Source: Theocolax elegans (Eukaryota; Arthropoda; Insecta; Hymenoptera; Cerocephalidae). Taken from it: a DNA stretch of 64,000 nucleotides. Below the pieces are notes generated by a model. That model saw only the letters and a program-made list of their open reading frames with translations. It had not been told where the DNA came from and did no database searches. Below are positions 29,463-63,603 of the stretch, piece after piece; the first letter of the stretch is position 1; the number at the start of each line of letters is the position of its first letter. A program made the position numbers and the translations under genes. Location of the stretch: the NCBI GenBank assembly GCA_026168455.1, contig CM047429.1, positions 40,222,066-40,286,065 on the forward strand, written 5' to 3'.

Positions 29463-29952
29463 TTATTCTCGTACGTCAGGAGGGTTTTAATTGTCCTGTG
29501 CATATCCTCAATGCACAGGAAATATTCTCCGTGTACCGATCAGCTGTTTACCAGTCAGCTAATCCGATCGTCAGAACCGTCCTTGAAGTGGTGCGAGCTA
29601 GCCTCAAGCTCCGCACGACGACGTCTTCCCTGTGTACAATGTGTGCACTTACCTAGTGTACACTTATCCTCCGTCGATGCTCGTACTCGGCTACTCAGTT
29701 ATGTGTCGTGCGCAGTACAATGCACGACACCCGCGGGGCATGGCGGTATTCGCCTTCGGGGACAGGGAGTAATCGCCGGTTAATTAAGATAACTCGGAAT
29801 TAGAAGTGATTAATTAATTTATTGATACGAAATAAGAATAAAAGAAACGTTACAATAGGGTGAGCCAAGGCAAGGTCGAACCTTGGCTCAAAGCAAACAA
29901 GGCTATTCGCGTAACCTATAGAAGATACAAAATACACGATGACGTGTGTGTG
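29463..29952. other. GC-mixed unassigned region with hairpin
   Basis: No domain recognised in the short frames. A hairpin GAGCCAAGG / CCTTGGCTC lies at about 29862-29892. A (GT)n tract at 29943-29955 borders the duplicated block that follows. Confidence 0.4.
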
Positions 29953-30834
29953 TGTGCGCCCGCCGCAATATACGCGTCGAGACTCGCGGTCTCGATCTAC
30001 TCGGGGAGGAGGTTATATTCGCCAGGTATCGGTTACCTAGCTCTGTAATGTTTATTGCTGGGTTGCGATCGCGCCGGAGTGTGTAGCACTCCGGTTTGCC
30101 GTAATCGGGATTTACGGGGCGAGAGAGAGTGTCGCGACGAGAGCGGCTAACCTCTCGTATACTTCTGCGTCGGGATACCGCGCGTATCCCGTCGCCGGTT
30201 TCGCTCGCGATACGGTGATAATAAACCGGATATGGCCTGGCCAGGACTTACGCTAGTCAGAGGATGATCTCGGGGTGGACGGCACGTGTCTCGTTCCCTT
30301 CGGTCTCGTACTCTCCCTCTCTCTCTAAATCCCTCGTCCTACGGTACACTTCTCTCACGGGGCACGCTTTATTTTCCCTCTCGAACGATTTCCGATCTCG
30401 TGTTGTTCGAGGTTCGAACGATACTGCCGGTGTGTCGTGCACACCGGCTCTCCGACGCGCTCGCGCATGCGCTTTACGCGTCTTCAACGGTAGACTCACG
30501 CGATCGGTACGATTTTCGTCTCGCGTGAACCGTTTACCGTTACAACTTGTAAAAACGGAAAAAAAATGGAAAATATTGCTCGTATGAGGTTCACACGAGA
30601 CACTGTGATTTTATTTACTAAGCACGTTGAAAGTTGTTGTCGGAGTTAGTTTCTAAAACTGAAGCGATAAAAATAAACATCGTTTTGACACCTCAATAAT
30701 CGAGGGACGTGAGTGTAGAATAATAGTAATTTATTGTAAAATAGTTAAAGGGTGCCCCTGTTGAAAAAAACTCGAGGTGGATATCCAGTTCGATTTCGAG
30801 GGTCGATTTGCAAGCTGGATTTTTTCGGGCTGGA
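29953..30834. repeat. Duplicated block, copy A (flank plus TE left end)
   Basis: Matches copy B at 31834-32720 with an offset of 1881-1882 bp. The first ~700 bp look identical; the last ~160 bp (30670-30834) differ by many one- to five-base insertions in A. The block is GC-rich and includes the left end of the Tnp2-type element (TGCCCCTGTTGAAAAAAACT near 30754). Frames of 80-107 codons occur on both strands in both copies but have no recognisable domain. Confidence 0.85.
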
Positions 30835-31833
30835 CCTCGATTTCGAGCTGAATCCACCTCGATTGGCCACGATTTCGAGTCGATTGGCCTCGATTTCGAG
30901 CTGAATCCACCTCGATTGGCCACGATTTCGAGTCGATTGGCCTCGATTTCGAGCTGAATCCACCTCGATTGGCCACGATTTCGAGTCGATTGGCCTCGAT
31001 TTCGAGCTGAATCCACCTCGATTGGCCACGATTTCGAGTCGATTGGCCTCGATTTCGAGCTGAATCCACCTCGATTGGCCACGATTTCGAGTCGATTGGC
31101 CTCGATTTCGAGCTGAATCCACCTCGATTGGCCACGATTTCGAGTCGATTGGCCTCGATTTCGAGCTGAATCCACCTCGATTGGCCACGATTTCGAGTCG
31201 ATTGGCCTCGATTTCGAGCTGAATCCACCTCGATTGGCCACGATTTCGAGTCGATTGGCCTCGATTTCGAGCTGAATCCACCTCGATTGGCCACGATTTC
31301 GAGTCGATTGGCCTCGATTTCGAGCTGAATCCACCTCGATTGGCCACGATTTCGAGTCGATTGGCCTCGATTTCGAGCTGAATCCACCTCGATTGGCCAC
31401 GATTTCGAGTCGATTGGCCTCGATTTCGAGCTGAATCCACCTCGATTGGCCACGATTTCGAGTCGATTGGCCTCGATTTCGAGCTGAATCCACCTCGATT
31501 GGCCACGATTTCGAGTCGATTGGCCTCGATTTCGAGCTGAATCCACCTCGATTGGCCACGATTTCGAGTCGATTGGCCTCGATTTCGAGCTGAATCCACC
31601 TCGATTGGCCACGATTTCGAGTCGATTGGCCTCGATTTCGAGCTGAATCCACCTCGATTGGCCACGATTTCGAGTCGATTGGCCTCGATTTCGAGCTGAA
31701 TCCACCTCGATTGGCCACGATTTCGAGTCGATTGGCCTCGATTTCGAGCTGAATCCACCTCGATTGGCCACGATTTCGAGTCGATTGGCCTCGATTTCGA
31801 GCTGAATCCACCTCGATTGGCCACGATTTCGAG
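30835..31833. repeat. Perfect 53-bp minisatellite, ~19 copies
   Basis: Unit starts CCTCGATTTCGAGCTGAATC and contains CACCTCGATTGGCCACG and ATTTCGAGTCGATTGG; about 18.8 copies with no mismatch that I can see. Because 53 is not a multiple of 3 and the unit has no stop on the minus strand, all three minus frames stay open for over 340 codons with the same 53-residue repeat. This explains three long overlapping frames and argues against a gene. The unit is two diverged ~26-bp words of the kind found in the subterminal regions of the adjacent element. Confidence 0.95.
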
Positions 31834-32625
31834 TGTGCGCCCCGCCGCAATATACGCGTCGAGACTCGCGGTCTCGATCTACTCGGGGAGGAGGTTATAT
31901 TCGCCAGGTATCGGTTACCTAGCTCTGTAATGTTTATTGCTGGGTTGCGATCGCGCCGGAGTGTGTAGCACTCCGGTTTGCCGTAATCGGGATTTACGGG
32001 GCGAGAGAGAGTGTCGCGACGAGAGCGGCTAACCTCTCGTATACTTCTGCGTCGGGATACCGCGCGTATCCCGTCGCCGGTTTCGCTCGCGATACGGTGA
32101 TAATAAACCGGATATGGCCTGGCCAGGACTTACGCTAGTCAGAGGATGATCTCGGGGTGGACGGCACGTGTCTCGTTCCCTTCGGTCTCGTACTCTCCCT
32201 CTCTCTCTAAATCCCTCGTCCTACGGTACACTTCTCTCACGGGGCACGCTTTATTTTCCCTCTCGAACGATTTCCGATCTCGTGTTGTTCGAGGTTCGAA
32301 CGATACTGCCGGTGTGTCGTGCACACCGGCTCTCCGACGCGCTCGCGCATGCGCTTTACGCGTCTTCAACGGTAGACTCACGCGATCGGTACGATTTTCG
32401 TCTCGCGTGAACCGTTTACCGTTACAACTTGTAAAAACGGAAAAAAAATGGAAAATATTGCTCGTATGAGGTTCACACGAGACACTGTGATTTTATTTAC
32501 TAAGCACGTTGAAAGTTGTTGTCGGAGTTAGTTTCTAAAACTGAAGCGATAAACATCGTTTTGACCCTCAATAATCGATGACGTGAGTAGAATAATAGTA
32601 ATTTATTGTAAAATAGTTAAGGGTG
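31834..32625. repeat. Duplicated block, copy B
   Basis: Second copy of the GC-rich flank, ending in GTTAAGGGTG directly before the CCCTGTTG terminus of the element at 32626. Identical to copy A over most of its length. Confidence 0.85.
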
Positions 32626-32635
32626 CCCTGTTGAA

Positions 32636-33410
32636 AAAATCGAGGTGGATATCCAGTTCGATTTCGAGGTCGATTTCAAGCTGGATTTCGGGCTGGATTC
32701 GACTCGATTTTGCCTCGATTTGACTCGATTTTTGGCCTCGATTTCGAGCTGAATCCACCTCGATTGGCCACGATTTCGAGTCGATTGGCCTCGATTTCGA
32801 GCTCGATGGGCCTCGATTTGACCTGGATCGGCCTCGATTTTGAGCTCAATTGGACTCGATATCGGGCGGCTTCGGCCTCGATTTCGACCTTGATCAGCCT
32901 CGATTTTGAGCTAGAATAGCCTCAATTTCGAACTGGATGGGCGTCAATCGGGAACTCGATTTCACGTTCGATCGGCCTCGATTTCAAGCTGCAATATCCT
33001 CGATTTCGACCTGGATCAGCCTCGATTTCGAGCTTGATTGGCCTCGATTTTGGGCTGGATCGGACTCGATCGGGGATTCGATTTCGAGTGGGATAGAACT
33101 CAATCAGTGCCTCGATTTCGAACTGAATCGGTATGGATTGGGGACTTGATATCAAGTGGGTACGGACTCGATCGGGGCCTCGATTTCGACCTGGATCAGT
33201 CTCGAATTCGAGATCGATTGGCCTCCATTTCGGGCTGGAATAGCGTCGATCGGGGACTCGATTGGACACTCGCTAGCCCTCGATGGCGAGCTGAATAGGC
33301 CTCGATCTGGGACTCGGCTTCGGTCTCGATTGGGGACTCGACTTCGGGTTCGATTGGCCTCAATTGGCCGCAATTTCGTGCTGGATTTTCTTTAATTAGG
33401 GACTTGATTC
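32636..33410. repeat. Left subterminal word array
   Basis: About 30 degenerate repeats of the form CCTCGATTTCGAGCTGGATCG. Short frames in several phases are repeat translations. Likely transposase-binding or structural subterminal repeats, by analogy with EnSpm elements. Confidence 0.8.
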
Positions 33411-34637: not shown

Positions 34638-35760
34638 TCAAGTTTGCCAATACTTATGAGGTACTGGACATATATATTGGTTTTCATTCACAGCCATTAA
34701 AATACAAATATTTTTTATTTTATTGGTTTCGATTACTTGTATTTGAGGATTTGTGGCAACAATCTTCTTAATAATGAATTGTTCATTAGATATACAATGT
34801 TCTGTTATTAGCTGCTTATACGCTGTGTACTCTTTGGAATTGTTATTGTCAATAAGAAATTGTTGCATTTGTATAAACTCACCATTGACTGTTTGCGCAT
34901 ACGAATTATCTGATCGTCGATTACTTTTTTTTGAAAAATTAAACAAACATTCATCTTTAACAATTTTTTTATAAGCTGTTACATCTTCTGCAGACAAATT
35001 TAATTGCTGCAATACATCTTCATTTACTGGTAATGGCTTTCCAAAATATCGAAATTGTTTTGATTTCGTGCTTTTTGCAGTAATTTTGTTCTCTAAATAA
35101 TAACAATAATCCATAACAGAAGAAAATTGTTTTAAAGCAACTTGTTTTTCTAAAATTATTATGCTTTCTTGTACTGTAAGACTTCTACAAATTTGACTAA
35201 GTACACCTCTTGCTGCATGAACTTTTGAAACAATTTTACCATTACCAGATTCAAATGGGTAACCATAATGCACCCATAGTGGTCCCCAATTGACTACACT
35301 CTGTGCTAGGTGAGTTAATTGGTGAACATTAAAAGACATTGCGTCTACTCCGTAATAAACCTCCGTTAAAGCAATAAATTTATTTAATAAGTAATCAGCA
35401 CGCTGTAATTCCAATTGATTAATTGACTCCTTCAGCAGTAAATGATAGCCTTCCACTAATAAAACCCAATGTTGTAGAAATTTGTCAAAATTAGGTATTT
35501 CAGCTAATATTACGGTACTGTAAAATAAAAGCCAATTCACCCACTCTTTAGCCTTCCAGTAGCTGCGATCATATATTGAACGCGATAATCTGGCGAGCTG
35601 TTGTGGAACCCTGAATTCCGTAATTTGTTTATCAATATTATCCATTTAATATTTGATATGCTGTATGGCTTGTTAGAAGATTTAAACCAGTAATCAGCAA
35701 ATTGTTTTGATATTCTTAAACCTATACAGTGCATCACATCTGGTACAAATCCAGGTTGAA
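34638..35760 (-). pseudogene. Tnp2/DUF4218-type transposase, C-terminal half
   Basis: The minus strand encodes the C-terminal region of an EnSpm/CACTA-type transposase: a PDVMHCIGL motif near 35740, then W(K)AKEWVNWLLFY, and the DUF4218 signature FNVHQLTHLAQSV..WGPLWVHYGYPFES with the histidines and PFE block intact. A single frame change near 35640 separates the MHC segment from the 335-codon main frame. A possible acceptor (TACCAG) precedes the MHC motif. Upstream catalytic exons are absent; subterminal repeats begin immediately instead. Fragments of related transposases are at 47409 and 49900. Confidence 0.75.
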
Positions 35761-42395: not shown

Positions 42396-42542
42396 TGTAG
42401 TGACTATTATTTATTAATTATTATTAATTACTTATAATATTACTTATAGGTACGTTCTTAATATAATAATTTAATTTGGTACAAAAATATACAATCATTG
42501 GAGTACTGGCAAAAGTGCTTACACACTTTTTTAATATTTTAT

Positions 42543-44915
42543 CCCGTAATTCGTGGAGTTATCCCGGAATAGCTCACGAATTCCCGAAATATCGAGGAAA
42601 TCCCGTAATTAGTGAAGTATCCCGAAATATCCAGGAAATCTCGTAATTAGTGAAGTTATCCCGAAAATAACTCAGAAACTCCCCAAGTATACTAAACCCC
42701 AAAATTAGTGAAGTTAACCCGGCATACCTCAACAATGACCGAAATATTAAGAAAATCTCGAAATTGGTGGAGTTATCCCGGAATACATGAAAAATTCCCG
42801 AAATACCTCAGAAAATCCCGAAATACCATAGAAAATCTTGAAATAACCAAAAAATCCCGAAATTAGGGAATTTATCCCGAAATACCACAGAAAATCCCGA
42901 AATATCCAGGAAATCCCGAAATTGGTGGATTTATTCCGGAATACCACAGAATATCCCGAAACATCTAGGAAATCCCGAAAGTGGTGGGGTTATTACCCGG
43001 AATACTTCAGAAAATCCCGAAACATCCAGGAAATCTCGAAATCGGTGGATTTATCCCGAAATACCACAGGAAATTCCGAAACATCCAGGAAATCCAGAAT
43101 TTGGTGGATTTATTCCGGAATACCACAGAAGATCCCAAAACATCCAGGAAATCCAGAATTTGGTGGATTTATTCCGGAATACCACAGAAGATCCCAAAAC
43201 ATCTAGGAAATCCCGAAATTGTTGGAGTTATCTCAGAACACGTCAGCAAATCTCGAAACATCCAGGAAATCCCGAAATTGGTGGAGTTATCCCGAAATAC
43301 CACAGAAAACCCCGAGACTTGCAGGAAATCCCGAAATTGGTGGAGTTATTCCGGAATATACTTAAGAAAATCCCGAAACATCCAGGAAAACACTAAATTA
43401 GTGAAGATTTCCCGGCATATCTAAAAAATTACCGAATTATTTAGAAAATCCCGAAATTAGTGGAGTTATCCCGGAATACCTCAAACATTCCCAAAATATC
43501 CAGGAAATCCCGTATTTAGTGGAGTTATCCCGAAATACCACAGAAAAACCCGAGACTTGCAGGAAACCCCGAAATTGGTGGAGTTATCCCGGAATACTTA
43601 AGAAAATCCCGAAACATCCAGGAAAACACTAAATTAGTGAAGATTTCCCGGCATATCTAAGAAATTACCGAATTATTTAGAAAATCCCGAAATTAGTGGA
43701 GTTATCCCGGAATAGCTCACGAATTCCCGAAATATCGAGGAAATCCCGTAATTAGTGAAGTATCCCGAAATATCCAGGAAATCTCGTAATTAGTGAAGTT
43801 ATCCCGAAATAACTCAGAAACTCCCCAAGTATACTAAACCCCAAAATTAGTGAAGTTAACCCGGCATACCTCAACAATGACCGAAATATTAAGAAAATCT
43901 CGAAATTGGTGGAGTTATCCCGGAATACATGAAAAATTCCCGAAATACCTCAGAAAATCCCGAAATACCATAGAAAATCTTGAAATAACCAAAAAATCCC
44001 GAAATTAGGGAATTTATCCCGAAATACCACAGAAAATCCCGAAATATCCAGGAAATCCCGAAATTGGTGGATTTATTCCGGAATACCACAGAATATCCCG
44101 AAACATCTAGGAAATCCCGAAAGTGGTGGGGTTATTACCCGGAATACTTCAGAAAATCCCGAAACATCCAGGAAATCTCGAAATCGGTGGATTTATCCCG
44201 AAATACCACAGGAAATTCCGAAACATCCAGGAAATCCAGAATTTGGTGGATTTATTCCGGAATACCACAGAAGATCCCAAAACATCCAGGAAATCCAGAA
44301 TTTGGTGGATTTATTCCGGAATACCACAGAAGATCCCAAAACATCTAGGAAATCCCGAAATTGTTGGAGTTATCTCAGAACACGTCAGCAAATCTCGAAA
44401 CATCCAGGAAATCCCGAAATTGGTGGAGTTATCCCGAAATACCACAGAAAACCCCGAGACTTGCAGGAAATCCCGAAATTGGTGGAGTTATTCCGGAATA
44501 TACTTAAGAAAATCCCGAAACATCCAGGAAAACACTAAATTAGTGAAGATTTCCCGGCATATCTAAAAAATTACCGAATTATTTAGAAAATCCCGAAATT
44601 AGTGGAGTTATCCCGGAATACCTCAAACATTCCCAAAATATCCAGGAAATCCCGTATTTAGTGGAGTTATCCCGAAATACCACAGAAAAACCCGAGACTT
44701 GCAGGAAACCCCGAAATTGGTGGAGTTATCCCGGAATACTTAAGAAAATCCCGAAACATCCAGGAAAACACTAAATTAGTGAAGATTTCCCGGCATATCT
44801 AAGAAATTACCGAATTATTTAGAAAATCCCGAAATTAGTGGAGTTATCCCGAAATATCCAGGAAATCCCGTATTTAGTGGAGTTATCCCGAAATAATTCA
44901 GAAATTCCCGAGACA
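42543..44915. repeat. ~59-bp minisatellite duplicated as a 1142-bp block
   Basis: Units of about 57-61 bp built from CCCGAAATTGGTGGAGTTAT, CCCGGAATACCTCAGAAAAT and CCCGAAACATCCAGG. The block 42555-43696 is repeated almost exactly at 43697-44838 (offset 1142; I see single-base differences such as at 42665), followed by about 75 bp of a third. Identical frames of 66, 94, 147 and 78 codons occur in both halves and are repeat translations, not genes. Confidence 0.9.
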
Positions 44916-46184: not shown

Positions 46185-47408
46185 ATGAAAAATTTTGCGA
46201 TAATTGAGGACGAAGAGAAATTAAGAGTTATCCCAACGAGATGGCTGTCAGATGACCTGCAAAGAAATGTATTGGCCTCCTTATAAGGACCAAACAAAAT
46301 GCATCAAAGCAATTTCAAATTTGGAAGAACGTAATAACACTTGGGAACTATACCCTATAAAACGTTTTATTAAATACTGTGGTAAATTTACTTTTATTTA
46401 TGATTTATGTTTCAATAAAATAATATCCTAGAAATAATGGTTATTTTTAACGTAAACATTTTCTTTGAGTTATTTGTCATTTATTTAAGATCTACTTATA
46501 TTATATTAACATAAATTATTTGCTTATATCCATTGGTCCCTGTTGCAAATAAGTATGTAATTTAAATATATAATTAAGTTACGTAACAGAATCATATAAT
46601 TTATTATGTAACAGAAGTATGTAATTAATTACGTAATTAGTGTTTCAATTCATTACGTAAAGAAATTTCGTTACATAATTTAATTACATAATTTTTAAAA
46701 AAATTAGGGAATGTATTATTTAATTTATCAATAATATGATTTTTAATATAATTATTTATTTAGCTAATATATATTTGCCATATAAAAAAAATTATGACCC
46801 GGTTGCACGATATAATTTAAGTTCTAAGGTAAGAGGGAACAAAATAGTCAGTGTAATAGTAAAAAAAAATATAAAGTTATTTATCAAAGCAATAAATTTG
46901 TTTATTTGTAACAGTTTATTCATTGCGGAATCTCCCAAATAATAAAAAATTAATTTTAGACTCTTGAGAGTTGTCTTTTAAATTTTCCACCTACTAATTA
47001 AAATAATAGATTTTAAAGCAGTCTAGATATTTTAGATTTTTAATAATTTCGCATGTAAGGTCTCACAAGAAATTTAAAAAATCAAAAATATCTGAAACGT
47101 TTCTAAATCTGTTTTTTTAATTATGTGGGATTGGTAAATTTAAAAACCATCTCCCGAGAATCAGAAATTAATATTTATTATTTAAGAGATTCAAGTAGCT
47201 TGTTGATCTTGATATAAGATGAGATTTTGACATATGACATCTTATATAACATATACACGTATATATACACGTATGTACAAAGTTATTGCAAATTAATAGA
47301 AGTTCAAATTTGGTAAGCTACATATATAATTTTTATTATTTACAGTTATATACACACAAATCGCTTGAATACTGCTAGTTTGAATTGCTGTTAGTTCGCA
47401 AGAAATAT

Positions 47409-48085
47409 TTATAACTTTGCGCAATGGTAGATTATCATTGTTAAAACAGATTCTGTAGCAACTATATGACACAATGTATACTCCTTTTCCCTTGGCATGT
47501 CTAGTATGAAATCAATTAGTTGGACGTAATTGCCATCGGTGGATATTGCGAATGAATTATTGGATCTGCAAATTTGAATCCTTAATGATCTATATAAGCA
47601 ACAATAGTTTACTATTTTTCTAAAACTTCGACTTGCATCCGACAAATCAAGTTTTCGTATCCATTCTCTACGTGTCTTGTAGTGTTTTCCAAAATACCTT
47701 GTATCAAGTAGCTTACACGTATTCTTTGTATATTTATAATCAAGATAATCAGTAAATTCATCAATTTTAGACAATTCTTGCAAGGAAATATGTTTTTTTA
47801 ATGTCAATAGACTCTGATTCATTGTTAAATTTCTGCAAATTTGGTGAACTACTCCTTTAGCAGCATGGATTTGTCGAATAATATTACCGATTTCATTTTC
47901 AAAACAATAACCTGAGTGCGACCAAAGAGGACCCCAGTTGGCTACACTTTGCGATAAATGAAGCAGTTGATGTACATTGTACGTCATTGCTGCTTAGGTG
48001 TATAAAAATTGTGTGTGAATGACAAATTCTTTTAAAGAGTAATACGCTCGTGAAATTTTATGTGATATTAAATTAAACGGTCTGT
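47409..48085 (-). pseudogene. DUF4218 transposase fragment, left arm
   Basis: The minus-strand frame (192 codons from 47987) carries MTYNVHQLLHLSQSV, WGPLWSHSGYCFENE and HAAKGVVHQICRNL, the DUF4218 signature of Tnp2-type transposases. Upstream the same frame continues past a TAA near 47996 as AYYSLKEFVIHTQFLY, so the fragment extends to about 48085. The C-terminus is complete at 47409. Confidence 0.75.
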
Positions 48086-49289
48086 ACGAGCCAGAATATG
48101 TAAATATTCTTAATCATCAGTCAATGGTGTGCCACAATTCGTAGCTTTTACGCACAAATGAATGAGTATAAATAATTTAATTCTGGAAACTGTCAGCTCT
48201 AAGCTACATTAATTAATTATCTTTCAAATGAACTCTTTTATTTAAAATTATATTTTACATGTATGTATTGAATATATATGGGTAATTACTGATCTGACTA
48301 AAATTTTAAAATGCACCAAATTTTTGGTAAAGTCTAGAAAAATGCAATTTTCTTATATTTTTCAAGGTTTACTCAGCGAAATATTGTTAGAATAACTTGA
48401 AACTTTATAAAATGATAGATAATTACATAACGGAGGACAATTTTTTTTTAATCATTATTATAAGTAAATTAGTTGTTTTTTCGTCTGCTATTTTGTGGCG
48501 CGAAATTTGAATTTTTAATTGAGTATGATATCCCCTTAAGTGTTTAATATACTAAAATTTTCCTCAATATCTAATATACTTCTAGATCAAGTGATTTATT
48601 TAACCTTCGTAGAAGTATATGCTAGGTTTACTTGTGTCAGTTTCCTATAACTGTTTTGCTCATTGCTTAACTTAATAGCTTTATTAAAAAATCTCACGTG
48701 AGATCTCACACCAAAATTTCATCTAACTTTTCAATCGGAACGCTTCTGAAATTCCCCAAATAATAAGAAATCAATTCTGACTATAGCGAGTCACTTTCTA
48801 AGTGATAAGACCCTCTAGATAAACTCAAAAATCAAGGTTTTAAAGCGTTGAAGGCATATTTTCGATCGTTATAAATTTCTCAAAACTCGGTAATAGATAT
48901 CTTATTATTTAGAAAGTTTAAGCAGCGTTCTCATTGAAAAGTTAGCTAATCAATTTCGTTGATAAAATTATATAAATTATTAAGAAATATTTATTTACTT
49001 TATTGATATAGTGACTGATTTAAAATTCTGATAATGGAAAATTAAAATAGACCTTATTCAATAAAGTAGGTTTAATATTGTGAGATTAGGAGATAAATTG
49101 AGAAATTAAGTTAAAATAATCGTAAATATAATTTATTATGTATTTTTAGGCACGATTGTTTCACGAAAGTGTCTTATATTTTTATCATCGCAAAATATGT
49201 GAAACCTCAAAACAGTATATATTTTGACATAAAAATAAAATTTATGCAACTTATAACTCATCCAAACCTATCCCTAAAATGTATGTATG
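48086..49289. other. Centre of the inverted pair: AT-rich, with MITE relic
   Basis: No gene. 48685-48960 is a diverged partial copy of the CCCTAACAC MITE (AAAATCTCACGTGAGATCTC, GTGAGTC-like and TTAAGCAGCG boxes in the same order). The remainder is AT-rich with no recognised feature. Confidence 0.5.
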
Positions 49290-49564
49290 TGTTGGAGTGG
49301 TGGATTAAATAAATACTTGAGGTTTAATGTTAAGAAAGATATAATTAATAAGGTATATAAATACACACGGCAATAGCCGTAGTCGGCGACATGCTTACAT
49401 CGGAGTCTGAACGTAGAGAGTGAAGAGTATAGTACATAATAGGCGCTTAGAGTATAGACGCGAGACATGCGCGGTACGCTTGCTCTCGCGTGAGCTTGTA
49501 TGACTGCACAAAATCGTTGTATACCAATAGATGGCGCGACGTGTACCATTTACATATTATAACA
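49290..49564 (-). mobile_element. Ty1/copia 3' LTR (275 bp)
   Basis: On the minus strand it begins TGTTATAATATGTAAATGG and ends CACTCCAACA, with TGTT...AACA termini, directly after a purine-rich tract (AAATTTAGGAGGCG) that serves as polypurine tract. A 91-codon frame across it is LTR sequence, not a gene. Confidence 0.7.
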
Positions 49565-49580
49565 CGCCTCCTAAATTTTA

Positions 49581-49907
49581 TTATCGTAATTTCATACAAA
49601 CATTATCTATTTTTCGCGATTTATAACAATCTTTTTCATAATTTTCATTTATGAAATGATATTGCGCTTCAATGTGCTTCGAGTTTTTTGTAAAATTTCC
49701 GAATTTAGCAATCGCAATTGCTCCTGAGTTATCCTCGTACATGTTAATTGGTTTGTCGAATTTTACATCAAATGATTCACTTAACAAGTTTATAACAAAC
49801 AGTACTTCTGTTATTGATTCTGACATAGCAGTGTATTCTTGTGTGTTGTTATAATTATAGAAGTCTGCGTTCCTATTTTCAGCTGTATCGCTCATAAATT
49901 GCTTCAT
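49581..49907 (-). pseudogene. Ty1/copia RNase H end fragment
   Basis: The 108-codon minus frame has the C-terminal RNase H signature of copia elements: a TQEYTAMSESITEVLF block, MYEDNSGAIAIAK and SKHIEAQYHFI. It is followed by the polypurine tract and LTR. Upstream it is truncated at the junction with the DUF4218 right arm, where the two share CATTTATCGC. Confidence 0.85.
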
Positions 49908-50456
49908 TTATCGCAAAGTGTAGCAAACTCGGGTCCTCTTTGGTCGCATTCAGGTTATTGTTTTGAAAATGAAAACTGTAATATTATTCGACAAATCCAT
50001 GCTGCTAAAGGAGTAGTTCACCAAATTTGCAGAAATTTATCAATGAATCAGAGTCTATTGACTTTAAAAAAACATATTTCCATGCAAGAATCGTCTAAAA
50101 TTGATGAATTTACTGATTATCTTGATTATAAATATACAAAGAATACGTGTAAGCTACTTGATACAAGGTATTTTGGAAAACACTACAAGACACGTAGCGA
50201 ATGGATACGAAAACTTGGTTTGTCGGATGCAAGTCGAAGTTTTAGAAAAATAGTAAACTATTGTTGCTTATATAGATCATTAAGGATTCAAATTTGCAGA
50301 TCCAATAATTCATTCGCAATATCCACCGATGGCAATTACGTCCAACTAATTGATTTCATACTAGACATGCCAAGGGAAAAGGAGTATACATTGTGTCATA
50401 TAGTTGCTACAGAATCTGTTTTAACAATGATAATCTACCATTGCGCAAAGTTATAA
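49900..50456 (+). pseudogene. DUF4218 transposase fragment, right arm
   Basis: The plus-strand copy of the left-arm fragment, with SGPLWSHSGYCFENE, HAAKGVVHQICRNL and the same C-terminus. It differs by a few substitutions (for example W to S before GPLW). It is truncated at its N-terminus by the copia fragment; the apparent 205-codon frame starts inside copia sequence. Confidence 0.75.
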
Positions 50457-51341
50457 ATATTTCTTGCGAACTAACAGCAATTCAAACTAGCAGTATTCAA
50501 GCGATTTGTGTGTATATAACTGTAAATAATAAAAATTATATATGTAGCTTACCAAATTTGAACTTCTATTAATTTGCAATAACTTTGTACATACGTGTAT
50601 ATATACGTGTATATGTTATATAAGATGTCATATGTCAAAATCTCATCTTATATCAAGATCAACAAGCTACTTGAATCTCTTAAATAATAAATATTAATTT
50701 CTGATTCTCGGGAGATGGTTTTTAAATTTACCAATCCCACATAAATAAAAAAACAGGTTTAGAAACGTTTCAGATATTTTTGATTTTTTTAAATTTCTTG
50801 TGAGACCTTACATGCGAAATTATTAAAAATCTAAAATATCTAGAATGCTTTAAAACCTATTATTTTAATTAGTAGGTGGAAAATTTAAAAGACAACTCTC
50901 AAGAGTTTAAAACTAATTTTTTATTATTTGGGAGATTACGCAATGAATAAACTGTTACAAATAAATAAGTTTATTGCTTTGATAAATAACTTTATATTTT
51001 TTTTTACTATTACACTGACTATTTTGTTCCCTCTTACCTCAGAACTTAAATTATATCGTGCATCCGGGTCATAATTTTTTTTATATGCCAAATATATATT
51101 ATCTAAATAAATAATAATATTAAAAATCATATTATTGATTAATTAAATAATACATTCCCTAATTTTTTTAAAATTATGTAATTAAATTATGTAATCAAAT
51201 TATGTAACGAAATTTCTTTACGTAATAAATTGAAACAACTAATTACGTAATTAATTACATACTTCTGTTACATAATAAATTATATGATTCTGTTACGTAA
51301 CTTAATTATAAATTTAAATTACATACCTATTTGCAACAGGG

Positions 51342-55235: not shown

Positions 55236-55237
55236 CT

Positions 55238-55272
<35 letters not shown>

Positions 55273-55634
55273 GCAATTATAACATCTTTTAACAATGTAA
55301 AGTCTTCAATTTCTAAGGAGTACGCAATCACTCTTACATAAAAATCTTTTTTAATCCAATTATGTGGCTGAAAACATATCCACCTTAGTACAGATTTAAT
55401 TAAACGAGCCCTGTCTCTTTTGACTAAACAAGGGGGTAAAGTCATTGAAAGATTCATTGCATAATTAAAGCTTTTAATTAGGTACTCATTGTACGAACAT
55501 TTATTAAAACTCAAACAAATAGCATTGAGGAGAGCGAAGGAGCAGTCTACTATCACTTGTTTTGGTGCAGGTGCTCCACTCTGTAGCCAAGCATTTAACC
55601 AAGAAAATACATATATGTATGTATTATCGGTCAC
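55236..55634 (-). pseudogene. MULE-type transposase-derived fragment
   Basis: The 132-codon minus frame contains WLNAWLQSGAPAPKQVIVDCSFALLNAI and, further on, LPPCLVKRDRARLIKSVLRW. This pattern (a GAP.PK.V..D.S.ALLNA block, then a PPC.VR.D.A..IK block) is familiar from transposase-like proteins repeated in insect genomes; MULE affinity is my inference. The last residues are (TA)n translation and the first residues belong to the adjacent array, so only about 110 codons are real. Confidence 0.45.
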
Positions 55635-55740
55635 ACCGAACTAAATAAATTACTTTTAGAATAAAGTAGGCTCATTGTACTCTTTGTCCACTATGGTTGG
55701 TGGAATTTCCCAGAGCACGGCCTTTATTAAAAACAATTAA

Positions 55741-55809
55741 AGGCGTTTCGTCCTCGATCTCCAGCTTGGACTCCTCAGTAAGGAACTGGAGATCTTACCT
55801 TAGACGCCT
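55741..55809 (-). ncRNA. Hammerhead ribozyme, copy 1
   Basis: Read on the minus strand from 55809: AGGCGUC, then UAAGG, a 14-nt loop, CCUUA, core CUGAGGA, GUCC, a 14-nt loop, GGAC, core GAAA, CGCCU. Stem III is AGGCG/CGCCU plus U16.1-A15.1, stem I is UAAGG/CCUUA, stem II is GUCC/GGAC, all perfect, with the conserved 10.1-11.1 G-C pair. The cleavage triplet is GUC, so the cut is expected after C17 at 55803. Core rule C3UGANGA9 and G12AAA fully met. Stem III is the open stem, so topology is type III. Loop I holds GAUCUCCAG and loop II CUGGAGAUC, nine bases that can pair as a loop-loop contact. Confidence 0.92.
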
Positions 55810-56132
55810 GTCGCAAGATGAACCGCGACGCCAGCAAGATGTTCTGCGGCTATATATATAGAAAAGAGACGACGATCTCTACAACGAGTGTAGAGATATA
55901 GTCGTCTCCATCTGGTGGTGGGAAAAACCACCAGCCAGAGTGCGACGTATGCGACCTAGTCGCCGGTTATTTGAAAAATGAATCTATCGTTCGTAAATTT
56001 CTATATATGTATGTATTATCGGTCACACCGAACTAAATAAATTACTTTTAGAATAAAGTAGGCTCATTGTACTCTTTGTCCACTATGGTTGGTGGAATTT
56101 CCCAGAGCACGGCCTTTATTAAAAACAATTAA

Positions 56133-56201
56133 AGGCGTTTCGTCCTCGATCTCCAGCTTGGACTCCTCAGTAAGGAACTGGAGATCTTACCTTAGACGCC
56201 T
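56133..56201 (-). ncRNA. Hammerhead ribozyme, copy 2
   Basis: Identical 69-nt sequence, 392 bp from copy 1. Expected cleavage after the C at 56195 (minus strand). Confidence 0.92.
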
Positions 56202-56524
56202 GTCGCAAGATGAACCGCGACGCCAGCAAGATGTTCTGCGGCTATATATATAGAAAAGAGACGACGATCTCTACAACGAGTGTAGAGATATAGTCGTCTC
56301 CATCTGGTGGTGGGAAAAACCACCAGCCAGAGTGCGACGTATGCGACCTAGTCGCCGGTTATTTGAAAAATGAATCTATCGTTCGTAAATTTCTATATAT
56401 GTATGTATTATCGGTCACACCGAACTAAATAAATTACTTTTAGAATAAAGTAGGCTCATTGTACTCTTTGTCCACTATGGTTGGTGGAATTTCCCAGAGC
56501 ACGGCCTTTATTAAAAACAATTAA

Positions 56525-56593
56525 AGGCGTTTCGTCCTCGATCTCCAGCTTGGACTCCTCAGTAAGGAACTGGAGATCTTACCTTAGACGCCT
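56525..56593 (-). ncRNA. Hammerhead ribozyme, copy 3
   Basis: Identical 69-nt sequence, 392 bp from copy 2. Expected cleavage after the C at 56587 (minus strand). The partial fourth unit ends before its ribozyme. Confidence 0.92.
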
Positions 56594-56854
56594 GTCGCAA
56601 GATGAACCGCGACGCCAGCAAGATGTTCTGCGGCTATATATATAGAAAAGAGACGACGATCTCTACAACGAGTGTAGAGATATAGTCGTCTCCATCTGGT
56701 GGTGGGAAAAACCACCAGCCAGAGTGCGACGTATGCGACCTAGTCGCCGGTTATTTGAAAAATGAATCTATCGTTCGTAAATTTCTATATATGTATGTAT
56801 TATCGGTCACACCGAACTAAATAAATTACTTTTAGAATAAAGTAGGCTCATTGT

Positions 56855-59576: not shown

Positions 59577-60780
59577 AGACCCGTATTTCCTCAACCCAGC
59601 TCCCTAAAGGGTCGGTGCCATCCCAAGTAGCAAGTAATCAATCGCTTATCCAACATATCCCCAATATTGACCCCAGGCATTATTTTAATCTAGAAATAAA
59701 CGGCCATAAAATAATTGCACTCTTAGACGATGGAGCAACAAAATCTTTTCTAGGAGGCAATATAGGAGCTCTAGTGCAACACAAATTAAAAGCATCGCAA
59801 TGCCCTGCAGTTAAGGTAGCAGACGGCACAGTTATTCCTGTCCAGGGCACAGTCAACATCACAATTAAAATTGATGGAGACGAAATAGTTATGCCATTTG
59901 AAGTCGCAGACGGATTACACTACGACTGTATACTTGGAATCGATTTCAAACGCAAAATTAATATGAGCATCAACTATGAAGATGACTCCTGATGGACGAA
60001 AAAAGGCGTAATACACAAATTTTACCCCGAAGGCAACGATCCCAGTTGTATTCCGGCAGTAGCAAGTATTGGAGGATTAAAGCGAGCCAACCAGGAGCAA
60101 ATAGATAGAATGCACCGACTATTAGATGAATTAATTCCCCGAACACCCCAAACCCTAGGAGTAACTAATTTAACGAGCCTCAAGTTAGATGTGCAAGGAG
60201 CAGAGCCAATAAGACAGCCACGCCGCAAATATTCACCAAAAATGCTTCAAGCAGGCTATGAGGAGATAGGTCGGATGTTAAGAGAAGACATAATTGAGCC
60301 TTCGCAAAGCCCATGGTGCAGCTATCCGGTAATCGTACCAAAAGCGAATGGCAAATATCGCTTTTGTATTGATTACAGGTTAGTAAATGAAGTAACAAAG
60401 AAAATAGCCTATCCAGTGCGCAACATGGATGATATTCTGGACCAATTGCGAGAAAGCAGATTTATCAGTAAGCTAGATCTATCACAAGCCTACCACCAAG
60501 TTCCACTAGCCCCAGAAAGCCGCGAAATCACAGCATTTGCACTCCCAGGGAAAGGACTTTTCCAATTTAAAAGAGTACCATACGGTCTAACGAACGCACC
60601 TGCTATGTTCCAGCAATTAATGGACAAATTAATTAAACCGGAATGGGAACCACATGTGTTTGCCTATCTATGATATTATCATCACGACAAAAACATTCGA
60701 GGAACACATGAAATGGCTCAGAATAGTCCTAGTAGCCCTAAAGAAAGCCAATCTGCAATTAAACGAGAAAAATCAGAATT
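59522..60780 (+). pseudogene. pol: pol first copy: protease and partial RT, broken
   Basis: The protease frame (59522-59992) has active-site ALLDDGATKSFL and the ILGIDF block. It is ended by TGA at 59990-59992, where the second copy has TGG. The same frame then continues through RT to 60673, where two bases are missing exactly at the YLDD catalytic motif. Further small indels follow to 60780. The last ~890 bp are repeated downstream (offset 938), so this segment is either a recent tandem duplication or an assembly error. Confidence 0.8.
59552..59558 (+). promoter_or_regulatory. Candidate -1 ribosomal frameshift site G_GGA_AAG
   Basis: Heptamer GGGAAAG lies 19 nt before the gag stop, in the correct gag phase (X at codon position 3), inside the overlap with the pol frame. 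Pol lies in the -1 phase and has no good upstream start of its own. It fits the X_XXY_YYZ rule; a downstream stimulatory structure was not identified. Confidence 0.55.
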
Positions 60781-61768
60781 TTGTTGTCCAGAAGTACTTA
60801 TCTTGGATATAAGATAAACGAATTAGGTATGCCATTTGAAGTCGCAGACGGATTACACTACGACTGTATACTTGGAATCGATTTCAAACGCAAAATTAAT
60901 ATGAGCATCAACTATGAAGATGACACCTGGTGGACGAATAAAGGCGTAATACACAAATTTTACCCCGAAGGCAACGATCCCAGTTGTATTCCAGCAGTAG
61001 CAAGTATTGGAGGATTAAAGCGAGCCAACCAGGAGCAAATAGATAGAATGCACCGACTATTAGATGAATTAATTCCCCGAACACCCCAAACCCTAGGAGT
61101 AACTAATTTAACGAGCCTCAAGTTAGATGTGCAAGGAGCAGAGCCAATAAGACAGCCACGCCGCAAATATTCACCAAAAATGCTTCAAGCAGGCTATGAG
61201 GAGATAGGTCGGATGTTAAGAGAAGACATAATTGAGCCTTCGCAAAGCCCATGGTGCAGCTATCCGGTAATCGTACCAAAAGCGAATGGCAAATATCGCT
61301 TTTGTATTGATTACAGGTTAGTAAATGAAGTAACAAAGAAAATAGCCTATCCAGTGCGCAACATGGATGATATTCTGGACCAATTGCGAGAAAGCAGATT
61401 TATCAGTAAGCTAGATCTATCACAAGCCTACCACCAAGTTCCACTAGCCCCAGAAAGCCGCGAAATCACAGCATTTGCACTCCCAGGGAAAGGACTTTTC
61501 CAATTTAAAAGAGTACCATACGGTCTAACGAACGCACCTGCTATGTTCCAGCAATTAATGGACAAATTAATTAAACCGGAATGGGAACCACATGTGTTTG
61601 CCTATCTAGATGATATTATCATCACGACAAAAACATTAGAGGAACACATGAAATGGCTCAGAATAGTCCTAGTAGCCCTAAAGAAAGCCAATCTGCAATT
61701 AAACCAAGAAAAATCAGAATTTTGTTGTCCAGAAGTAACTTATCTTGAATATAAGATAAACGAATTAG
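59891..61768 (+). repeat. 938-bp tandem duplication within pol
   Basis: ATGCCATTTGAAGTCGCAGA occurs at 59891 and 60829; both copies run to GATAAACGAATTAGG. The first copy has extra substitutions and indels concentrated in its last 120 bp. The junction is at 60828/60829. Confidence 0.9.
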
Positions 61769-63603
61769 GGTTGCCAACTAACCAAGATAAAATTAAGCCA
61801 ATCTTAGAGCATCCAGCACCGAAAAATTTGAAACAACTAAGACGTTTCAACGTCTTAGTGGGATGGTACTTTAGATTTATTAAAGATTTAGCCAAGTATA
61901 GAACGCCATTAAGTTATCTAAGCAAGAAAGGTGTCAGATGGCAATGGCATCAAGAGCAACAAGATGCATTTGAAAAAATCAAATTAGCCCTAACAGAAGC
62001 CCCAGTTTTAGCCCGCCCCGATTTTTCTATTCCTTTTACCCTTCAAACGGACGCAAGCGATTACGCAATAGCAGGCGTATTAACGCAGGAGATCAACGGC
62101 GAAGAACATCTTATTTATTATGTAAGCAGGACTTTAAGCAAAGCAGAGCGCAATTATACGGTCACAGAGAAAGAATGCTTAGCAGTTCTCTGGTCCGTAG
62201 AAAGGCTGAAAGGATACCTGCTAGGTGAAAAGTTTACGGTAATCACGGACCATCACAGCCTCCTGTGGTTAAACCGACTTAAAGATCCAGCTGGTAGGTT
62301 AGCCCGTTGGAATACGATCTTGCAAAATTACAACATAAAATTTGTACATCGCAAAGGAGCAATGCATAATGTCCCAGACGCCTTATCAAGAGCCTTTGAA
62401 GAAGCAGAAGCCATAGCAGCAGCATTAACATTAAATACCAATAACCCATGGTATCAAGAGAAAATGCGAGCCGTTGCAAAATTTCCCAATAAATACCCTG
62501 ACCTCAGAATTTCCAATAACGTGCTATATGCCCATCGTCCAAACCCCCTGGTAGACCCCTTCATACCTGACCTAGACGCATGGAAATTAATCTTGGCAGA
62601 AAGTGATCGCGAAAAAGCCCTATATGAAGCCCATTATACGCCTCAGGCAGGTCACTTAGGTATCGAAAAGACCTACGCAAAACTAGCCACGCAGTATTAT
62701 TGGCCAGGCATGTATTACGATACGTGCAATTATGTAAAAGCATGCCAAGAATGCCAAGCGCACAAAAGCAGCCAACAAGCCCCACCAGGTCTAATGGAAG
62801 GACGCAACATAAGCCAACCATGGACAGTGGTAGCAGCAGACATTATGGGACCAAAGCTGCCAACGAAGCAAGGATTTAGATACATAATCGTGTTTGAAGA
62901 CCTATTCACCCGTTATATAGAGATAAAACCTCTACGACGAGCTGATGCAAAAAGTGTCCTACAAGCCTTCGACGAACTCATTATTAATAAATGGGGTTGT
63001 CCAAAATATCTCGTAACAGATAATGGGACAGAATTTGCCAATAAATTGGTTACCGAGCGACTAACGCAATACGGAATAGTACAGACAACCATTCCGCCAT
63101 ATTTTGCACAAGCAAATCCCGTAGAGCGAGTTAACAGGAACATAAAGCCGATGATAAACAGTTATCTAGCAGATGATCACCGAGACTGGGATAGATATCT
63201 CGGAGAATTTAATTTCGCTCTAAATACAGTAGTGCACTCGTCAACCAAATATAGCCCAGCATTCCTCAACTTAGGCAGAAATCCCACCCCAGTAGCTCTC
63301 CTACGAAAACATATAGAATTCCCAAAGCAAATACCAGCCCCAGATACCGATCAATGGGTAGAACGCCTACATAAACTTCCCAAAATATATGATTTAGTAA
63401 AAAGGCATATTGATTTAGCAACAGCCAGACAAGCCAAGTACTATAACAAAGGTAGACGCGATATACAATATCAGTTAGGAGACCTAATTAGGTACCGAAA
63501 CCGCATCTTATCATCAGCAGATAACTTTATAGCAGCCAAACAAGCCCCCAAATTTATAGGCCCCGCAAAAATTATTCAAGTATTCTCACCCACAGTTTAT
63601 TAA
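60781..63603 (+). CDS. pol: pol second copy: RT, RNase H and integrase
   Basis: A 940-codon frame entered from the duplicated protease tail. RT occupies ~130-330 with RFCIDYRLVN and YLDD at ~275-278 (61603-61614). RNase H occupies ~415-550 with LQTDAS, TEKECLAV, TDHHSLLW and a VPDALSRAF end. Integrase has an HHCC finger (~617-665), ADIMGP (first D ~687), TDNGTEF (second D ~747) and ER (E ~782; 34 residues between D and E by my count). A GPAKIIQVF segment resembles the GPY/F module. It stops at 63601-63603 because of a one-base loss: the following 100 bp continue a protein-like tail in another phase. The frame does not start with the natural pol N-terminus. Confidence 0.85.
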   Translation: MLSRSTYLGYKINELGMPFEVADGLHYDCILGIDFKRKINMSINYEDDTWWTNKGVIHKFYPEGNDPSCIPAVASIGGLKRANQEQIDRMHRLLDELIPRTPQTLGVTNLTSLKLDVQGAEPIRQPRRKYSPKMLQAGYEEIGRMLREDIIEPSQSPWCSYPVIVPKANGKYRFCIDYRLVNEVTKKIAYPVRNMDDILDQLRESRFISKLDLSQAYHQVPLAPESREITAFALPGKGLFQFKRVPYGLTNAPAMFQQLMDKLIKPEWEPHVFAYLDDIIITTKTLEEHMKWLRIVLVALKKANLQLNQEKSEFCCPEVTYLEYKINELGLPTNQDKIKPILEHPAPKNLKQLRRFNVLVGWYFRFIKDLAKYRTPLSYLSKKGVRWQWHQEQQDAFEKIKLALTEAPVLARPDFSIPFTLQTDASDYAIAGVLTQEINGEEHLIYYVSRTLSKAERNYTVTEKECLAVLWSVERLKGYLLGEKFTVITDHHSLLWLNRLKDPAGRLARWNTILQNYNIKFVHRKGAMHNVPDALSRAFEEAEAIAAALTLNTNNPWYQEKMRAVAKFPNKYPDLRISNNVLYAHRPNPLVDPFIPDLDAWKLILAESDREKALYEAHYTPQAGHLGIEKTYAKLATQYYWPGMYYDTCNYVKACQECQAHKSSQQAPPGLMEGRNISQPWTVVAADIMGPKLPTKQGFRYIIVFEDLFTRYIEIKPLRRADAKSVLQAFDELIINKWGCPKYLVTDNGTEFANKLVTERLTQYGIVQTTIPPYFAQANPVERVNRNIKPMINSYLADDHRDWDRYLGEFNFALNTVVHSSTKYSPAFLNLGRNPTPVALLRKHIEFPKQIPAPDTDQWVERLHKLPKIYDLVKRHIDLATARQAKYYNKGRRDIQYQLGDLIRYRNRILSSADNFIAAKQAPKFIGPAKIIQVFSPTVY

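Follow-up and report, generated by a model that had tools for sequence, protein, structure and literature searches.

The locus described here raises the question of what kind of genetic element would place a hammerhead ribozyme in each of several identical repeats of an insect genome. Within the 64-kb stretch of DNA that was analysed (the window), in silico analysis with TRF delineates a tandem array at 55611-56854 with a period of 392, 3.2 copies, 100% matches and 0% indels, which corresponds to 3.17 copies of the unit in the window. Direct comparison reveals that units 1, 2 and 3 are the same letter for letter and that 56787-56854 equals the opening 68 bp of the unit, in exact agreement with the original prediction of three identical 392-bp units arranged head to tail. 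The unit has a GC content of 42.9%, compared with 35.6% for the window. The longest open frame in the tripled unit, counted from stop to stop, spans 63 codons, which confirms the predicted absence of a protein frame. No further copies of the unit were detected in the window by blastn (word size 7, E<=1). The components of the array are listed below, where the minus strand is that of the transcript of interest.

55611..56854, minus strand: tandem array, three full 392-bp units plus 68 bp (TRF and unit comparison)
55611..56002, minus strand: unit 1 (direct comparison)
56003..56394, minus strand: unit 2, identical to unit 1 (direct comparison)
56395..56786, minus strand: unit 3, identical to unit 1 (direct comparison)
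56787..56854, minus strand: partial fourth copy, the first 68 bp of the unit (direct comparison)

The two ends of the array fall at unit positions 1 and 68, whereas the predicted cleavage site lies at unit position 193. The ends therefore do not coincide with the cleavage site, which indicates that linear cleavage products were not the end-to-end source of the DNA; copying from a circle or from an uncleaved transcript would fit, and so would a duplication at the DNA level. Word comparison of the flanks found no target-site duplication at both boundaries: the longest word common to the two ends, TATTAT, adjoins the array on its right side and, at the left end, is found 11 bp within the array; the ends share four 5-mers besides. 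No LTR structure was recognised around the array and no PBS was recognised by eye among the unit's 14-mers starting with TGG, while a simple PPT scan returned a single 10-nt purine run on the plus strand and none on the minus strand.

To the right of the array begins a Ty3/gypsy-type element, in which Pfam domains mark a zinc-knuckle gag frame, an aspartyl protease, a reverse transcriptase, an RNase H and an integrase. An LTR of this element was considered as the site in which the array resides, and no 3' LTR of it was seen within the window. A tandem duplication of approximately 940 bp (59880-61776, 98.4%) lies within its pol region. Among the best 120 of the 4,885 matches to this pol, the closest has 69% identity and the first named one, from Trichogramma brassicae, 46%; the named matches come mostly from Trichogramma, but also from ants, Diaphorina and Lygus. 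On the left side, a 134-codon frame on the minus strand (55236-55640) overlaps the first 30 bp of the array; it has no Pfam domain and resembles a fragment of a longer protein (VFSWLNAWLQSGAPAPKQVIVDCSFALLNA). Farther away, the frame at 34638-35645 has no Pfam match, and its relatives P0003 and P0010 carry PF02992, a transposase family. Seven of its ten database matches are named, five being hymenopteran (Temnothorax, Eretmocerus three times, and Trichogramma) and two from ticks. Similar frames, which by eye resemble the one at 34638-35645, are present on both arms of an inverted repeat of approximately 1.45 kb (46538-51341, 96.8%), at 47409-47993 on the minus strand and at 49824-50456 on the plus strand. 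Judging from the relatives of these transposon-type frames, which can cross species, the host is an insect and probably a hymenopteran. The window also contains a 53-bp unit repeated 18.9 times with 100% identity over exactly 1000 bp (30835-31834), which adjoins a larger duplication (29952-30955 and 31833-32803, 95.6%), and a tandem duplication of approximately 1.14 kb (42541-44870, 99.3%) that is built of 59-bp and 20-bp ATCCCGAAAT-type repeats.

Read on the minus strand, each unit presents, from 5' to 3', AGGCG, UC followed by the cleavage site, UAAGG, loop I (14 nt), CCUUA, CUGAGGA, GUCC, loop II (14 nt), GGAC, GAAA and CGCCU. These segments form stem III (AGGCG/CGCCU), stem I (UAAGG/CCUUA) and stem II (GUCC/GGAC) around a core composed of the cleavage triplet GUC, CUGAGGA and GAAA. 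Since stem III is open outward, the hammerhead belongs to type III, and every unit displays the complete set of features of this type (CUGANGA, GAAA, an NUH triplet, three stems and an open stem III). The three ribozymes, together with the loops of the first, are located as follows.

55740..55810, minus strand: type III hammerhead of unit 1, predicted cleavage 55803/55802 (Rfam RF00008 and descriptor)
56132..56202, minus strand: type III hammerhead of unit 2, predicted cleavage 56195/56194 (Rfam RF00008 and descriptor)
56524..56594, minus strand: type III hammerhead of unit 3, predicted cleavage 56587/56586 (Rfam RF00008 and descriptor)
55784..55797, minus strand: loop I of unit 1, UAAGAUCUCCAGUU, 14 nt (coordinates counted from the sequence)
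55754..55767, minus strand: loop II of unit 1, AAGCUGGAGAUCGA, 14 nt (coordinates counted from the sequence)

In a search of 1,501 bases, the Rfam model RF00008 (type III) matched these three places over its full length (positions 1-54 of 54) with an E-value of 7.6e-6. The score, 36.5 bits, misses the gathering score of 48.5, and a gathering-level scan of the whole window consequently gives zero matches; the covariance-model check that accompanied the original prediction thus comes out positive by E-value and negative by gathering score. The low score is probably caused by an 11-nt insertion in loop I and by the long loop II of the alignment. A descriptor that demands the core and stems I, II and III of no fewer than 4, 3 and 4 bp, respectively (for type I, a stem III of no fewer than 2 bp), finds the three array hammerheads and no other site in the window. 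Applied to both strands of 100 first-order-Markov 64-kb windows, it returned three core sites, each of which had the type I form, and no type III site. The plus strand of the unit contains no ribozyme detectable by Rfam at E<=10 and no CTGANGA motif; the ar7 and PK-PYVV rows of the Rfam output (E 4.3 and 9) were taken as chance. The predicted cleaved bases (55803, 56195 and 56587) are spaced by exactly 392, so self-cleavage of one minus-strand transcript spanning the array would yield two monomers of 392 nt. Both the presence of a full minus-strand hammerhead in each unit, with core, triplet and stems intact, and this exact spacing had been claimed beforehand and hold up here. Not part of that claim were the assignment to type III, the loop complementarity and competing fold described below, and the other near-identical duplications of the window. 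At the sequence level, the ribozyme match is strong and the logic of unit-length cleavage well supported by RF00008, the identity of the units and the descriptor.

The two large loops are complementary to each other: loop I and loop II can form nine Watson-Crick pairs, or 11 when neighbouring G-U and A-U pairs are included. Complementarity of at least 9 bp was reached by 16 of 200,000 random 14x14 loop pairs. As a natural yardstick, we turned to viral and prokaryotic contigs and took from them the cores that have this stem II and whose loop II measures 10-24 nt. Together with the window, 261 listed loci yielded 145 distinct cores; 25 of these, the window's included, close as type III, and the other 120 (33 closing as type I) were left out of the loop comparison. 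The best loop match among the 24 other long-loop-II type III hammerheads is five pairs, compared with nine in the array, but this yardstick is uneven because loop I measures only 5-9 nt in 23 of the 24, and few could therefore reach nine pairs. The unusual feature is therefore the combination of a large loop I and its complementarity to loop II. This restricted set superseded an earlier comparison of at least 120 loci, where 22 of 136 core matches closed as type III, all with a loop II of 4-6 nt and at most three complementary Watson-Crick bases between the loops. In several of the prokaryotic and viral contigs (L122, L185, L215 and others), the hammerhead core was matched two or three times in a single stretch. 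Many hammerheads (approximately 40% by prediction) are reported to form a pseudoknot that connects stems I and II, and in a type II hammerhead, trimming it from 6 bp to 4 bp slowed cleavage approximately 20-fold (PMC3088659); the loop contact in the delta-like type III hammerheads of toad and termite is shorter (PMC7936874).

The loop pairing would either clamp the active ribozyme or lock its core away. In nested folding, which is carried out without pseudoknots, stems I and II stay open and the two loops pair with each other, forming a 10-bp hairpin whose inner part sets UCCUU against GAGGA of the core. The probability of this hairpin is 0.9995 in both the isolated ribozyme and the 330-nt nascent transcript, 0.998 in the 392-nt circle and 0.35 in the 454-nt 5'-cleaved transcript that extends to the next ribozyme, and the probability of hammerhead stems I and II is 0.0 in all four contexts. 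The nested minimum-energy fold is not the hammerhead, and the 71-nt ribozyme has an MFE of -28.9 kcal/mol, while the hammerhead in nested form reaches -13.5 kcal/mol; pairing of the two loops contributes -18.1 by itself. Self-pairing is strong on both strands of the unit (z -6.9 and -7.2), with an MFE of -129.2 kcal/mol (z -6.9) for the circular minus strand. The kissing hammerhead keeps its stems together with the loop helix and lies outside what nested folding can score, so that folding neither proves nor refutes ribozyme activity. These models predict that the finished 392-nt circle would hide its hammerhead, the loops of the ribozyme itself acting as the block. The hammerhead is described as blocked by complementary sequence in plant retrozymes and viroidal circles, whereas it is free to fold in most metazoan retrozyme circles, some mussel ones excepted (PMC7229834).

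How does this array compare with known retrozymes? The metazoan non-LTR retrozymes are described as tandem repeats of 150-450 bp with low GC, no ORF, no PBS or PPT, and a type I hammerhead (PMC7229834, Cervera and de la Pena 2020). The array resembles them in the size of its unit, tandem layout, low GC, absence of an ORF and of an LTR, PBS or PPT (by the simple scan), as well as in the hammerhead of each unit and the unit-length circle expected from it. It departs from them in that its hammerhead is of type III and, by nested folding, blocked in the predicted circle, while theirs is of type I and mostly free there (PMC7229834); we therefore rejected membership in the described animal retrozymes, of which the type I hammerhead is a defining trait. 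Accordingly, the earlier suggestion of a retrozyme agrees with the array in size, layout, GC and the absence of ORF, PBS and PPT, but not in the type of the ribozyme. Plant LTR retrozymes, on the other hand, are reported to carry type III hammerheads in few tandem copies of 600-1000 nt (PMC4918200, PMC7229834, PMC7761336, PMC11722881). The array shares with them the type of hammerhead, its block in the predicted circle and the small number of tandem copies (PMC7229834). Unlike these elements, it shows no PBS or PPT in the simple scan, has no recognised LTR and has a unit of 392 nt instead of about 600-1000, and membership in this group was rejected on the basis of PBS, PPT and unit size. The element thus has the size and layout of animal retrozymes together with a ribozyme of the plant kind, and it is best described as an insect tandem element that is retrozyme-like, loop-paired and of type III.

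On balance, if by a small degree, we favour the view that the array is a retrozyme-like, non-protein-coding element of the insect genome that relies on a two-way action of its loops and on reverse transcription in trans, and the element likely works like a retrozyme. We infer that it would be transcribed, cleaved, circularised, switched and mobilised along the following lines. Loops I and II would kiss across parallel stems I and II, clamping the active ribozyme; alternatively, stems I and II would open and the loops would form a long hairpin that buries the core and shields the circle from re-cutting. If a reverse transcriptase supplied in trans copied a circle for more than one turn, head-to-tail insertions like the array would result. 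Against the retrozyme reading stands that neither a target-site duplication nor a second locus was found within the 64 kb, and against an active hammerhead the preference of nested folding for the core-burying hairpin. Moreover, Pfam recognised no Penelope-type element, the supposed helper, in the 13 frames scanned out of 54 frames of at least 110 aa, so this helper is unseen in the window.

Tandem copies could also arise without RNA, since the window contains other near-identical duplications (e.g., 42541-43729 and 43684-44870, at 99.3%). The locus may thus be a small satellite-like array, in which a hammerhead monomer was duplicated in DNA by unequal exchange or slippage and the ribozyme only trims the satellite transcripts, as in pDo500 of Dolichopoda; we judge this explanation unlikely. 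The perfect identity of the units and the fractional last unit are what it would lead one to expect, and hammerhead satellites are already known in insects: the pDo500 repeats, of approximately 500 bp, carry a hammerhead each and their transcripts are processed to monomers (PMC2837043). However, pDo500, whose motif has 49 bp, occupies approximately 5% of one species' genome, whereas the array amounts to only 3.17 copies in the window and has large complementary loops (PMC2837043). In addition, the ribozyme is intact, its loops match over 9 bp and the unit around it is strongly paired, which may point to selection on an RNA.

It is quite improbable that the ribozyme is dead or trapped, that is, that the loop helix locks the core, no cutting takes place and the array is a relic, a reading compatible with any origin of the repeats. 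The zero probability of stems I and II in nested folding and the distance between the 71-nt MFE and the energy of the nested hammerhead, both given above, would speak for such a relic. Yet the core, the triplet and all stems are intact where drift would erode them, published hammerheads with pseudoknots of this kind, predicted to be common, do cleave (PMC3088659), and the kissing form is beyond the scoring of the folding method used.

We regard it as very unlikely that the array derives, as a DNA copy, from a viroid-like or retroviroid-like RNA replicon, whether of the insect itself or of an organism associated with it. A length of 392 nt is viroid-sized, both strands are strongly self-paired, the hammerhead is blocked in the predicted circle, as in viroidal circles (PMC7229834), and type III hammerheads with loop pseudoknots occur in delta-like RNAs of termite and toad and in insect DNA (PMC7936874). 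However, the ribozyme is confined to one strand: avsunviroids and viroid-like satellites are characterised by ribozymes of both polarities, and the plus strand here has neither an Rfam match at E<=10 nor a CTGANGA motif. Some satellites are described as carrying a hammerhead in a single polarity only, and circles with a ribozyme of one polarity are considered possible retrozymes (PMC11721086). A 41-mer of the unit has no exact match in viral or genome contigs and two further stretches have none in viral contigs, so that three stretches in all lack a viral match, a weak test. Plasmids gave no match to the unit at 0.01, and among the best 20 of 35 phage records only short pieces matched (E 3-10); the collections searched are prokaryotic or viral, and their silence therefore says little about insects.

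Among RNA agents, satCYDV-RPV RNA is not known to have a chromosomal copy. Unlike the array, this RNA is a satellite of a plant virus, and it likewise uses a type III hammerhead with a pseudoknot between loops I and II (PMC3185516, PMC7936874). The hammerheads of HDV-like (epsilon) RNA, termites and dipterans are similar in that they are of type III in an animal setting, with a 5-bp first stem in helix I and loop I-loop II pairing (PMC7936874). In contrast to the HDV-like agents, the array lacks a delta-antigen frame (no frame exceeds 63 codons) and has its ribozyme in the minus polarity only. Furthermore, the epsilon-type contact is a 4-nt GCCR/YGGC pairing from an internal loop, while that of the array would involve 9 bp between two terminal loops (PMC7936874). 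As described in the same source, insect type III hammerheads comprise isolated motifs in termites, whereas those of the array stand in tandem, and motifs in dipterans including D. pseudoobscura; its structure search for the epsilon-like type III architecture reports none in hymenopterans (PMC7936874).

Finally, it is highly improbable that the assembler inflated the copy number by duplicating a single unit or a dimer, which would leave the ribozyme in place and is compatible with the other readings: the perfect identity of the units and the second perfect repeat of the window, the 53-bp array of exactly 1000 bp described above, point in this direction, but the copies of most other duplications in the window have diverged by 0.7-7%, which shows that the assembly retains differing copies. 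The probabilities of these alternatives overlap because a trapped ribozyme and an inflated assembly can each coexist with any origin.

A bolder form of the retrozyme-like reading, which we consider doubtful though worth stating, is that the array represents the first animal lineage of type III tandem retrozymes, a mosaic that joins the animal layout to a ribozyme of the plant or viroid kind, in which one and the same 9-bp loop helix would clamp the ribozyme for cutting and then refold to lock the ligated circle against further cleavage. If so, the element would carry its complete on/off switch within the loops of its ribozyme and would be a candidate link between the genomic hammerheads of insects and viroid-like circular RNAs. 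The literature searched, whose scope leaves aside most subscription journals and all preprints, yielded no report of an animal tandem array of type III hammerheads, and one group has announced further work on insect type III hammerheads as in preparation (PMC7936874). According to a review, the type III elements of plants might derive from bacteria or insects by horizontal transfer (PMC7761336), and an insect tandem element whose type III hammerhead is blocked in the circle predicted for it is the kind of object on which this idea depends. The split between animal and plant retrozymes underlies current ideas on the origins of retrozymes and viroids, and the loop design of the array would provide a simple test of how self-cleaving circles escape re-cutting.
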